Shown here: piece by piece, positions 24,912 to 45,838 of the stretch
Position numbering within the stretch: position 1 is the first letter of the stretch
Layout of the letters: each line of letters opens with the position of its first letter
Source of the DNA: Bradyrhizobium betae
GTDB taxonomy: Bacteria > Pseudomonadota > Alphaproteobacteria > Rhizobiales > Xanthobacteraceae
DNA length: 64,000 nucleotides
Direction: 5' to 3'
NCBI RefSeq assembly: GCF_008932115.1
Contig: NZ_CP044543.1
Span: 1,860,001 to 1,924,000 of the forward strand
Position numbers and translations under genes: made by a program
The notes under the pieces: generated by a model
Told to the model about the DNA's origin: nothing
Seen by the model: only the letters and a program-made list of their open reading frames with translations
Databases searched by the model: none

Positions 24912-25190
24912 CCGCGCCCGGCCCGCCCCTTAAAAAATGCAAACAATTTCATATATATAATCAGCCACCCCGAGAGGCCGCGGCCGGTGCCGGCGCGCTA
25001 TTCGGGGACGGCACGCCGATGCCGATATGAACGGCAGCGGCCCTGAGACGGCGCTGTCACGCGACACCATTAACTTGTCTGTCGCGGCTCGCCGCTACAA
25101 TATGTTGGATTGATCTTGCGTCGCCGGTGGCGGCGCGACCGAGCCAGGCCCGTCCGAGCGGCGGGCCGTTGGCTTTTTGGGAGTTTGGTC

Positions 25191-26447
25191 ATGAGCCGCG
25201 CGAACCGTACCGACCACATCCGCCTCACCTCCCATCCGGAGCCGGGCCGGAAGGCCGCCTTCCCGATCCACTGGGGTGCCGCGGATGCGCGCGCCCGCGG
25301 ACCGATCATCGGCACGGTGTCGCGCGCCGGGGATCGCAACGTGATCGGCAGCCATGGCGGCTCCTATGCGATGTACCGCGCGCTCGCGGTGTCCGCCGGC
25401 GCGCTCGATCCGATCCGTCGCCCGGATCTCACCAACACGTTTCCGGCCGCGACCATCGGGCCGTTCGAGCAATGGCGCGATCCCGCCAAGATCGTCGCGC
25501 TCGATCCCTGGGGGCATCTGGTCGCCGAGAACTTCAGCAAGGAGATCGCCGAGGGTTCCGACATCCGTCCGAGCATCGCGGTGACCCGCGCGCGGCTGGA
25601 TCTGCCGGAGATCCGCGAGGCGCTGGCGGCAAAACGGCTGCGCGCCGACGGCGAGGTCGTGCATGCCAATGGCAGCGTCTCGGTCGTGAAGATCGCGATC
25701 GATCCGGTCTGGTATCTGCCCGGCCTTGCCGAGCGGTTCGGCACCAACGAGACCGAGCTCCGCCGCACCCTGTTCGAGCAGACCGCCGGCATGTTCCCCG
25801 AACTGGTGACGCGGCCGGACATGAAGGTGTTCCTGCCGCCGATCGGCGGCACCACGGTCTACATGTTCGGCGATGTGACCAAACTGCCGGACCATCGCAC
25901 CAAGATCACCTGCCGCGTGCACGACGAGTGCAATGGCTCCGACGTGTTCGGCTCCGACATCTGCACCTGCCGGCCCTATCTGATCCACGGAATCGAGGAA
26001 TCCGCGCGCGGCGCGCAGGAAGGCGGGCTCGGGCTCGTCATCTACAACCGCAAGGAAGGCCGCGCACTCGGCGAGGTCACCAAATTCCTGGTCTACAACG
26101 CGCGCAAACGGCAGGAGGACGGCGATGCGGCCGCCGCCTATTTCGAGCGCACCGAATGCGTCGCCGGCGTCCAGGACGCGCGCTTCCAGCAATTGATGCC
26201 GGATACCATCCACTGGCTCGGCCTGAAGCGCATCGACCGATTCCTGTCGATGAGCGACATGAAGCACGACGCGTTGACCTCGCAGGGCATCGACATCGTC
26301 GAGCGCGTGCCGATCCCGCTCGAACTCATTCCGGCCGACGCCCATGTCGAGATCGCCGCGAAGAAGGCGGCCGGCTATTACTCGACCGACATCGCGCCGG
26401 AGAAGGATGTGAACGGCGTGGTCGGGCGGTCGCTGGAAAAATACTGA
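25191..26447 (+). CDS. URC1-type GTP cyclohydrolase II-like protein (uracil catabolism)
   Basis: The 418-residue protein starts at ATG 25191 with GGGAG eight bases upstream. Its C-terminal half (about 210-400) is a GTP cyclohydrolase II domain: CRVHDECNGSDVFGSDICTC keeps the three zinc cysteines (Cys247, Cys258, Cys260) with the same spacing as RibA, and NRKEGRALG matches the catalytic Arg region. A 200-residue N-terminal extension replaces the DHBP synthase domain of RibBA. This layout is that of URC1, needed for uracil use in the yeast URC pathway. The next two genes are the DUF1688 and phosphoribosyltransferase partners, seven bases and one repeat away. An AT-rich stretch near 24945-24965 may carry the promoter. 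Confidence 0.82.
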   Translation: MSRANRTDHIRLTSHPEPGRKAAFPIHWGAADARARGPIIGTVSRAGDRNVIGSHGGSYAMYRALAVSAGALDPIRRPDLTNTFPAATIGPFEQWRDPAKIVALDPWGHLVAENFSKEIAEGSDIRPSIAVTRARLDLPEIREALAAKRLRADGEVVHANGSVSVVKIAIDPVWYLPGLAERFGTNETELRRTLFEQTAGMFPELVTRPDMKVFLPPIGGTTVYMFGDVTKLPDHRTKITCRVHDECNGSDVFGSDICTCRPYLIHGIEESARGAQEGGLGLVIYNRKEGRALGEVTKFLVYNARKRQEDGDAAAAYFERTECVAGVQDARFQQLMPDTIHWLGLKRIDRFLSMSDMKHDALTSQGIDIVERVPIPLELIPADAHVEIAAKKAAGYYSTDIAPEKDVNGVVGRSLEKY

Positions 26448-26454
26448 ATACGAA

Positions 26455-27693
26455 ATGGCGGACGCTTTGGAACAACAGGCCCGCTCGCTGCTCAGTGCAG
26501 AAGCGGTTCGCGCGCGGGCCGGCGACATGCTCGAGATCGGCCTGAACGGCGGGCTCACGCATTTCACCATCGATCTCGATCGCATGGACGGCGTCGCGGA
26601 GGCCGTGCTCGCGGTGACGCGAAAGGCCTATCCGACGCTGGAGATTCCGTTCCATGCGCGCTGGCGGCATTTCGTGCTCGACGGTATCGACCGCTGGGCG
26701 CGGCTGGCGGACGCGGCGTCCTGGCCGGACCGCGCCGCGCGTGCGCGCGCGGAGTTCGACCTTGCCATCGTCAGCGTGCTGCTCGATGCCGGCGCGGGTG
26801 CGGCATGGCGCTATCGCGACGCAATCACGGGACAAGGCATCGGCCGGTCCGAAGGGCTGGCGATCGCGAGCCTCGACATGTTCGCGAGCGGCCTGTTTTC
26901 CGGCGATCCGCGCGCGCCCTTCAGGGTCGATGCGAATGTGCTCGCAACGCTGCCGCTCGCCGCACTGACATCCGCGTTTCAGGTGAGCGATGCCAATCCC
27001 CTGCTCGGCCTCGAAGGCCGTACGGATCTGCTGCAGCGTCTTGGCAAGCTGGTTGCCGGGCGTCCGGAGGTTTTCGGCCTGCATGACAGCCCACGGCCGG
27101 GCGGCCTGTTCGATCACATCGCCGCGCAGGCCAAGGGCGGCGCCATCGCCGCGCCCGCGATACTCTCCGCGGTGCTGAACCAGCTCGGACCGATCTGGCC
27201 GTCGCGGCTCGAACTCGCCGGGATTCCGCTTGGCGATTGCTGGCGCCATCCCGCGCTTCAGACGGATGATGCGACCGCCGGCCTCGTGCCGCTGCACAAG
27301 CTGTCGCAATGGCTGAGCTATTCGCTGATCGAGCCGCTCCAGCGCGCCGGCTTCGACGTCACCGACATCGACGGCCTGACCGGCCTTGCCGAATATCGCA
27401 ACGGCGGCCTGTTCGTCGATCACGGGGTCTTGCTGCTGCGCGATCCCGATGACGCAGACCGTGCGCATGCGGTGGACTCGCTGCTCGTCGTCGAGTGGCG
27501 CGCACTGACGGTTGCGTTGCTGGACCGGCTTGCTGATCTCGTTCGCGCAAAACTCGGCCGCACGCCGGAGTCCTTGCCGCTCGCCAGCATTTTGGAAGGC
27601 GGCACCTGGGCCGCCGGCCGCACCATTGCCTTTGCGCGCCGTCCCGATGGTTCGCCACCGCTCAAGGTGATCAGCGACGGCACGGTTTTCTGA
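26455..27693 (+). CDS. URC4/DUF1688-family protein (uracil catabolism)
   Basis: The 412-residue protein belongs to the DUF1688 (URC4/Urg3) family, known mostly from fungi and proteobacteria and needed for uracil degradation by the URC route, with no defined reaction. Recognisable blocks are [20 protein letters not shown] near the start, [13 protein letters not shown] at about 66-78, a central [23 protein letters not shown] segment and the conserved [18 protein letters not shown] at about 282-299. There is no signal peptide or membrane span. It begins seven bases after the URC1-like stop, so the two are co-transcribed. Confidence 0.82.
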
Positions 27694-27836
27694 CCCTCTC
27701 CCCTTGTGGGAGAGGGTGCCTCGCGAAGCGAGGCGGGTGAGGGGTCTGTCTCCGCAGACATATCTCTCATTGGAGTTCGTAGAAGCAGACCCCTCATCCG
27801 GCGCTTCGCGCCACCTTCTCCCGCAAGGGGAGAAGG
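27694..27836. repeat. Palindromic interspersed repeat, family A, copy 1
   Basis: The element begins right after the DUF1688 stop codon with CCCTCTCCCCTTGTGGGAG and ends with CTTCTCCCGCAAGGGGAG, so the whole 143 bases can fold as a long imperfect hairpin with inner stems around GGGGTCTG and CAGACCCC. A close relative with the same outer arms and internal order lies at 45691-45838. It sits inside the URC operon, between gene 2 and gene 3. Confidence 0.85.
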
Positions 27837-27853
27837 AAGAAAGGCATCCGATC

Positions 27854-28483
27854 ATGGAAGGCGTCACGATCGTCGATCATCCGCTGGTGCAGCACAAGCT
27901 GACGCTGGTGCGGGACAAATCGATCTCGACAAAGTCGTTCCGCGAGCTGATCAAGGAGATCGGCATGCTCTTGTGCTACGAGGTGACGCGCGACCTGCCG
28001 CTCACTGACACCATGATCGAGACGCCGCTAGCGACGATGCACTCGGCCAAGATCGCCGGCAAGAAGCTGGTGTTCGTGCCGATGCTGCGCGCCGGCACGA
28101 CCTTCGTCGACGGCATGATGGATCTGGTGCCGACCGCGCGCGTCGCCCATATCGGGCTTTACCGCGAGCCGGAGAGTTTCGCAGCGGTCGAGTATTTCTT
28201 CAAATCGCCATCCGATCTCAGCGAGCGCCTCGCCATCGTGGTGACGCCGGTGGTCGCCACCGCCAACACCGCCGTGGCCGCAATCGACCGGCTGAAGGAG
28301 CGCGGCGCCAAGGATATTCGCCTGGCCTGTTTGATCGCGGCGCCGGAGGGACTCGAGCGCCTGCGGGGCTTGCATCCGGACGTGCCGATCTGGACCGCCG
28401 CGGTGGATGAAGGCCTCGACGAAAACGGTTTTATTATCCCGGGTCTCGGCGACGCCGGCGACCGCGCTTACGGGACGCGATAA
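27854..28483 (+). CDS. upp: Uracil phosphoribosyltransferase-like protein with altered PRPP loop
   Basis: The 209-residue protein is aligned over its full length with uracil phosphoribosyltransferase (uracil + PRPP to UMP): [19 protein letters not shown] at 9-27, [11 protein letters not shown] at 78-88, AAPEGLERL, and the uracil-binding end [17 protein letters not shown]. The PRPP loop, normally DPMLATGGS, reads [10 protein letters not shown] at residues 131-140, losing the acidic residue and the glycines. It follows the URC1- and URC4-like genes with a repeat between. It may be the URC-specific paralogue (URC6-type) rather than the salvage enzyme. It is convergent with the M48 protease gene, three bases apart. 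Confidence 0.82.
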
Positions 28484-45690: not shown

Positions 45691-45838
45691 CCCTCTCCCC
45701 TTGTGGGAGAGGGTGGCTCGCCGCGAAGCGGCGAGACGGGTGAGGGGTTGTTTCCACGAGCGTATCTCTCGCATTGAATGCGCGGAGGCAACCCCTGATC
45801 CGGCGCTTCGCGCCACCTTCTCCCACAAGGGAAGAAGG
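45691..45838. repeat. Palindromic interspersed repeat, family A, copy 2
   Basis: It opens with CCCTCTCCCCTTGTGGGAG and ends with CTTCTCCCACAAGGGAAG, the same plan as copy 1 at 27694-27836, including the centre GCGCTTCGCGCCA and a ATCTCTC half-way. The 148-base unit lies between the convergent ycjF and glycosyltransferase genes. Confidence 0.85.

Follow-up and report, generated by a model that had tools for sequence, protein, structure and literature searches.

The uracil catabolism (URC) pathway is counted in PMC7530994 among four known routes for the breakdown of uracil, and the Rut and reductive Pyd pathways accomplish the same release of uracil nitrogen with different enzymes. Three protein families, a cyclohydrolase-II-like protein, a DUF1688 protein and a uracil phosphoribosyltransferase (UPRT), are shared by the URC system of Lachancea (Saccharomyces) kluyveri and the urg1-urg2-urg3 genes of fission yeast, and the urg genes of S. 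pombe are also described as clustered (PMC2174524). The bacterial URC route is already in print (PMC3869809, PMC12507026), the latter paper, from 2025, placing URC among the pyrimidine pathways and citing work on uridine triphosphate (UTP) cyclohydrolase, and in PMC9499338 the bacterial enzyme UrcA is reported to hydrolyse UTP in two steps. DUF1688 is still labelled as a domain of unknown function in Pfam. Qng1 (DUF2419; Q_salvage, PF10343) is a queuosine-5'-monophosphate N-glycosidase that converts a nucleoside 5'-monophosphate into its base and ribose 5-phosphate, and the human enzyme recovers queuine. This paper describes a three-gene URC set, putatively for obtaining nitrogen from uracil, of the soil bacterium Bradyrhizobium betae (genome of 7.4 Mb), located in a window of 64,000 nucleotides (contig NZ_CP044543.1, positions 1,860,001 to 1,924,000), in which all positions are given below. 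The locus is probably a bacterial URC operon that brings uracil to usable nitrogen at the nucleotide level, with its DUF1688 protein, URC4, acting as a glycosidase of the Qng1 type.

Composition and co-occurrence of the URC genes

Three open reading frames lie on the forward strand between positions 25191 and 28483 in the order URC1-URC4-UPRT, separated by gaps of 7 and 160 nucleotides, an operon order that sets the locus apart from the yeast URC genes. URC1 (25191..26447, +; ATG start, 418 amino acids) is a cyclohydrolase of the UrcA type, predicted to open the ring of UTP, which reaches 748 bits against the NCBIfam model PRK07198, well above its cut-off of 403, and matches the Pfam domains GTP_CH_N (265.7 bits) and GTP_cyclohydro2 (45.9 bits); a DHBP synthase domain was not found in it by profile scan at E<=0.001. 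URC4 (26455..27693, +; 412 amino acids, PF07958 at 483.7 bits) is the single DUF1688 match in the genome, and its closest relatives are Bradyrhizobium proteins with 94% identity. The third gene (27854..28483, +; ATG start, 209 amino acids) encodes a UPRT of the URC6 type that scores 253.5 bits on the upp profile TIGR01091 (cut-off 208.35), and it is one of two full-length upp genes in the genome, the paralogue being located at C1:4758774. These profile matches bear out the first-pass annotation, which had recognized three same-strand genes of these families, including a GTP-cyclohydrolase-II-like protein without DHBP synthase domain. Its further reading of the locus as a bacterial URC route is supported as well, with the qualification that the route itself is not new, as follows from the papers cited above.

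The same annotation had proposed a search for co-occurrence of the families. Among 398 genomes, drawn evenly across the phylum, URC1 and URC4 exceeded their cut-offs in the identical 26 genomes, which span 15 genera, and the two genes adjoin each other in all 26, a linkage that exceeds chance. UPRT was found in the short flank of 23 of these genomes, with the contig ending in L013. In addition, 80 loci from named genomes were compared, the best of at least 584 confirmed ones and a set that leans toward Bradyrhizobium and other Rhizobiales, and 75 of the 80 display the one-strand order URC1-URC4-UPRT. Of the remainder, L045 stops at a contig edge, L077, L090 and L091 carry URC4 and UPRT without a nearby URC1, and L103 has neither URC1 nor UPRT adjacent; in the genomes of the latter four, an unlinked URC1 above cut-off was found elsewhere in every case. 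URC4 also occurs on plasmid records (n=13) of Azospirillum, Cupriavidus, Pseudoroseomonas and Gordonia. A phosphopentomutase-like gene is present in 11 of 56 loci (family confirmed in two, L078 and L100), and an Azospirillum record contains a cytosine deaminase and a BMP/ABC transporter near the URC genes; these neighbours fit with the uptake of pyrimidines and the handing on of ribose phosphate.

Alternative routes for uracil use were also considered. Neither RutA (best E 3.2e-18) nor PydA (PRK08318; best E 5e-8) was found over cut-off in the host genome. Over the whole sample, RutA exceeded its cut-off in 26 and PydA in 67 of the 398 genomes, and 22 of the 26 URC genomes, including that of the host, contained neither. 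With 1.7 (RutA) and 4.4 (PydA) overlaps with URC expected under independent draws, and 3 and 1 observed, the counts do not demonstrate avoidance; what they show is that in most carriers of URC neither of the other two routes was found beside it. Urease, which could act on released urea, is present in the host genome, and its alpha subunit was found over cut-off in 23 of the 26 URC genomes.

Relation of URC4 to the queuosine-nucleotide glycosidase Qng1

The AlphaFold2 model of URC4 has a predicted local distance difference test score (pLDDT) of 94.8; matches to Qng1 were obtained for URC4, which in its predicted structure has the overall Qng1 fold. The residues of the two proteins, which share 16-22% identity, were paired by hhalign, with controls. 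Six places that are invariant in both families pair in this alignment, among which are Qng1 K199, paired with K282 of URC4, and the catalytic D231 of Qng1, whose place is taken by E313, a Glu that is invariant in 96 URC4 sequences. Deposited Qng1 entries with the substitutions K199C and D231N alter two of these paired invariant residues. The Qng1 reaction, combined with the conversion of ribosylurea to urea that PMC7530994 assigns to the URC4 product of L. kluyveri, suggests that URC4 is a ribosylurea-phosphate N-glycosidase. Thus, on basis of its predicted shape and a distant sequence match, URC4 is predicted to be a urea-releasing glycosidase, which would differ from Qng1 in its leaving group (urea rather than queuine), besides its greater length (412 amino acids versus about 320, approximately 90 residues more). 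This link assigns a fold and a type of reaction to DUF1688 and singles out specific residues for mutagenesis, by which the open step of the URC pathway becomes testable in bacteria as well as in fungi.

The relation did not emerge from conventional sequence comparison. Three DUF1688 proteins were compared with PF10343 without a match at E<=10, and a sequence search of URC4 against PDB chains returned nothing useful, its hits being three designed repeat proteins with E 0.33 or worse. A Q_salvage search of 345 genomes yielded zero matches, but its controls gave none either, so that it is uninformative. A connection of URC4 with queuosine, or of DUF1688 with Qng1, was not found in the literature searched, which did not extend to subscription papers and protein databases, and it may be known elsewhere.

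Proposed pathway and alternative explanations

We infer the substrates, products, number of phosphates and residue roles of the pathway, as well as growth on uracil, as follows. UPRT would combine uracil with phosphoribosyl pyrophosphate (PRPP) to uridine monophosphate (UMP), which general kinases would convert to UTP. The zinc-dependent URC1, of the UrcA type, would then hydrolyse the uracil ring twice, by which a C3 acid is released and urea is left on the ribose phosphate. URC4, working like Qng1 and the helix-hairpin-helix (HhH) glycosylases, may subsequently break the bond between C1' and N to yield urea and ribose 5-phosphate, with E313 as the putative acid or nucleophile and K282 as a possible helper at the sugar or the phosphate. 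Finally, urease would convert the urea to ammonia, at which point the host differs from L. kluyveri, for which URC3 and URC5 are given as urea amidolyase in PMC7530994.

Several observations weigh against this reading. The replacement of the catalytic Asp 231 by Glu could alter the chemistry, and the relation to Qng1 was not detected by sequence search alone (HMMER, Pfam, E<=10). Moreover, hhalign pairs W385 of URC4 with W302 of Qng1, but a gap keeps D298 off E381, and the pairing of the latter two results from a manual shift by the authors. At the level of the genomes, UPRT was not seen in the short flank of URC4 at L007 and L016, RutA is present in three (G289, G256, G259) and PydA in one (G338) of the 26 URC genomes, and urease alpha had no match in two and only a sub-cut-off match in a third. 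A ring-opening amidohydrolase occurs in 9 of the 26 URC genomes, and the host itself encodes one (PF09663) at C1:1938695, approximately 51 kb from the URC operon. As a candidate for a barbiturase in an oxidative route this protein was rejected, as it reaches 530 bits as a cyanuric acid amidohydrolase, against a cut-off of 360, and matches PDB cyanuric acid amidohydrolase better than barbiturase (431 versus 307 bits). In Bradyrhizobium uaiense, the URC genes adjoin a gene for cyanuric acid amidohydrolase and one for a second UPRT, which is divergent (L096:2500-4398).

The same replacement of Asp by Glu, together with the extra residues of DUF1688, would suit an operon that is real and in which URC4, though of Qng1 fold, converts what URC1 produces as a lyase, an isomerase or a ureido hydrolase, or else assists URC1 without being catalytic itself. 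We regard this as unlikely, given that the six shared invariant positions, K199 and D231 of Qng1 included, coincide in the alignment, and that the net reaction stated for L. kluyveri in PMC7530994 leads from ribosylurea to urea. The cluster could alternatively serve the balance of pyrimidine nucleotides by removing excess UTP, rather than the supply of nitrogen, for which the reported action of the URC1-type enzyme at the UTP level (PMC9499338) can be adduced, as can the second upp gene of the host, by which uracil salvage would not need the operon UPRT. The dedicated UPRT argues against such a role, as do the cytosine deaminase, BMP/ABC transporter or phosphopentomutase encoded nearby in other genomes, which point to feeding from outside, and the service of the L. 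kluyveri URC genes in growth with uracil as nitrogen source (PMC7530994); a function in nucleotide balance is considered quite improbable.

A last alternative concerns URC1, which might be a riboflavin GTP cyclohydrolase standing in for a degenerate domain elsewhere, with its neighbours being incidental. The host genome contains two PF00925 matches, URC1 and RibBA (L003:1480-2766, reverse strand; C1 at approximately 1.399 Mb), and the GTP cyclohydrolase II (GCHII) half of the latter is devoid of cysteine, which leaves URC1 as the sole intact GCHII-type protein of the two, and it is not evident which enzyme of the host begins riboflavin synthesis. A similar gap is described in PMC9478397 for Sinorhizobium, where the enzyme that opens the GTP ring in the second branch of riboflavin synthesis is stated as not yet found. 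The argument in the first-pass annotation that no riboflavin genes lie nearby is therefore weak, and the non-flavin role that it was meant to support stands on other grounds. URC1 falls far below the curated RibA cut-offs (TIGR00505, 48 versus 205.85; PRK00393, 57.7 versus 148), it was never encountered without URC4 among the 398 genomes, and the URC1 profile had no match in 20 genomes listed from the order of the host, in which the riboflavin step must be met by something else; the profile does give sub-cut-off matches in species such as E. coli and B. subtilis. On these grounds the riboflavin role was rejected, and we hold it to be very improbable. Compared with E. coli RibA, to which URC1 has a weak match of 46 bits, residues C54, C65, C67, Y105, D126 and R128 are aligned with identical residues in URC1; the cysteines are presumably the zinc ligands and the other three presumably catalytic. 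Over residues 8-415, URC1 matches PDB entries 7ej3/7eev with 575 bits. These entries name the molecule only as 'GTP cyclohydrolase II', and we take them to be, probably, the bacterial UTP cyclohydrolase UrcA. The active-site residues of the GCHII fold are kept in the URC1 described here, for which activity on UTP is predicted.

Leader element and surroundings of the operon

A promoter-like sequence (25074..25101, +), limited by eye, consists of CTTGTC (25074-25079) and TACAAT (25096-25101) at a distance of 16 nucleotides, from which transcription would start near 25108; a scanner for the sigma-70 consensus found no promoter upstream of URC1. It is followed by a leader hairpin (25142..25183, +) composed of GGCCCG-loop-CGGGCC (25147-25167), an outer stem, TTTTT and GGGAG, which, with its T-run, is located 23 nucleotides upstream of URC1, is a match in a terminator-like scan, and is a candidate attenuator or operator. 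In an alignment of 31 Bradyrhizobium upstream regions both the promoter-like stretch (gapped in L062 only) and the hairpin with T-run are kept and the intervening bases vary. The URC1 reading frame extends without a stop back to a TTG at 25110, and variation in this frame shows no preference for any codon position (12, 12 and 9 of 27 each), which argues against a translated N-terminal extension. Of 75 loci for which a start was located, 48 have the GGCCCG-loop-CGGGCC motif no more than 130 nucleotides upstream of it, and in 45 of these the distance is 21-26 nucleotides.

A covariance model (R1) built from 18 leader hairpins was searched against 92 sources (1.19 Mb), mostly URC loci with about 0.1 Mb of the host genome, so that the result is not a genome-wide test; all 51 matches at E<=0.01 were positioned at the URC1 start and on the URC strand. 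Relative to codon 33 of URC1, which is conserved, their ends range from 7 nucleotides past it to 71 nucleotides before it, with the tail overlapping the estimated URC1 start in L071. Thirty-three lie outside the model set, 29 in Bradyrhizobium and the other four with scores of only 25-27 bits. Of the 77 records in which URC1 is linked, 26 had no R1 match, and some of these carry a different hairpin in its position. R1 likewise found nothing at L119-L122, the four loci that surround unlinked URC1 genes. Rfam gave no match at the leader element of the window and none at gathering level in 8 loci.

Outside the main group of hairpins, a hairpin precedes URC1 in 13 of 26 cases versus 31 of 114 control gene starts, and a hairpin with T-rich tail in 8 of 26 versus 4 of 114; a stricter terminator finder marked 9 of 72 leaders and missed the Bradyrhizobium element, and the looser finder was written with this result in view. 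The folding of the leader RNA by itself is ordinary (z -1.31; 21 of 200 shuffles equally good), and RNAalifold found no useful consensus across hairpins of different Rhizobiales groups. As the stem of the main group is invariant in 18 aligned sequences, an RNA structure and a DNA operator both remain candidates. It appears distinctly unlikely, as a combined proposal, that the Rhizobiales leader works as an attenuator with more read-through at higher UTP, by which high UTP would induce the UTP-destroying enzyme, and that URC4 forms a new family of ribosylurea-phosphate N-glycosidases sharing ancestry with human Qng1. If the element does control the operon, root-nodule bacteria and related species would have in it a new switch that acts in cis on the catabolism of pyrimidines.

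Leaders of other types were also encountered. In the main group outside Bradyrhizobium the leader tail often reads GCCGTTTTGGG, and hairpins with other arms, at the same place before URC1 and with CCGTT within 12 nucleotides, were seen in L078, L081-L084, L086, L092, L104, L105, L107 and L111. The Brevundimonas loci L087, L095, L102 and L108 share a leader directly before URC1 with a CTGATGA- or CTGACGA-type stretch, unlike the Rhizobiales hairpin; its hammerhead-like appearance was not substantiated by an Rfam match at gathering level (L087, L102, L108).

Six flanking genes were scanned, encoding a glyoxalase-like protein, a PALP enzyme and a methyltransferase on the left and an M48 peptidase, a DUF898 protein and a LysR regulator on the right, and these have no evident link to URC. 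In 10 of 56 loci (L077, L078, L081-L084, L086, L090-L092) a sugar-kinase-like gene is located 3' of UPRT; its product starts near MRF.. VDWGTS or ADWGTT, and the L078 copy has no NCBIfam match. Finally, the gap between URC4 and UPRT contains a palindromic interspersed repeat of approximately 147 bp (27692..27838, no strand assigned), with a second copy of similar length at 45691-45838, the limits of both being set by eye. The repeat core has four matches in the window, in two pairs (27694-27836 and 45691-45838), versus 0 expected, and a similar element is present in 18 of 78 URC4-UPRT gaps of the named loci, the best 80 of at least 584.
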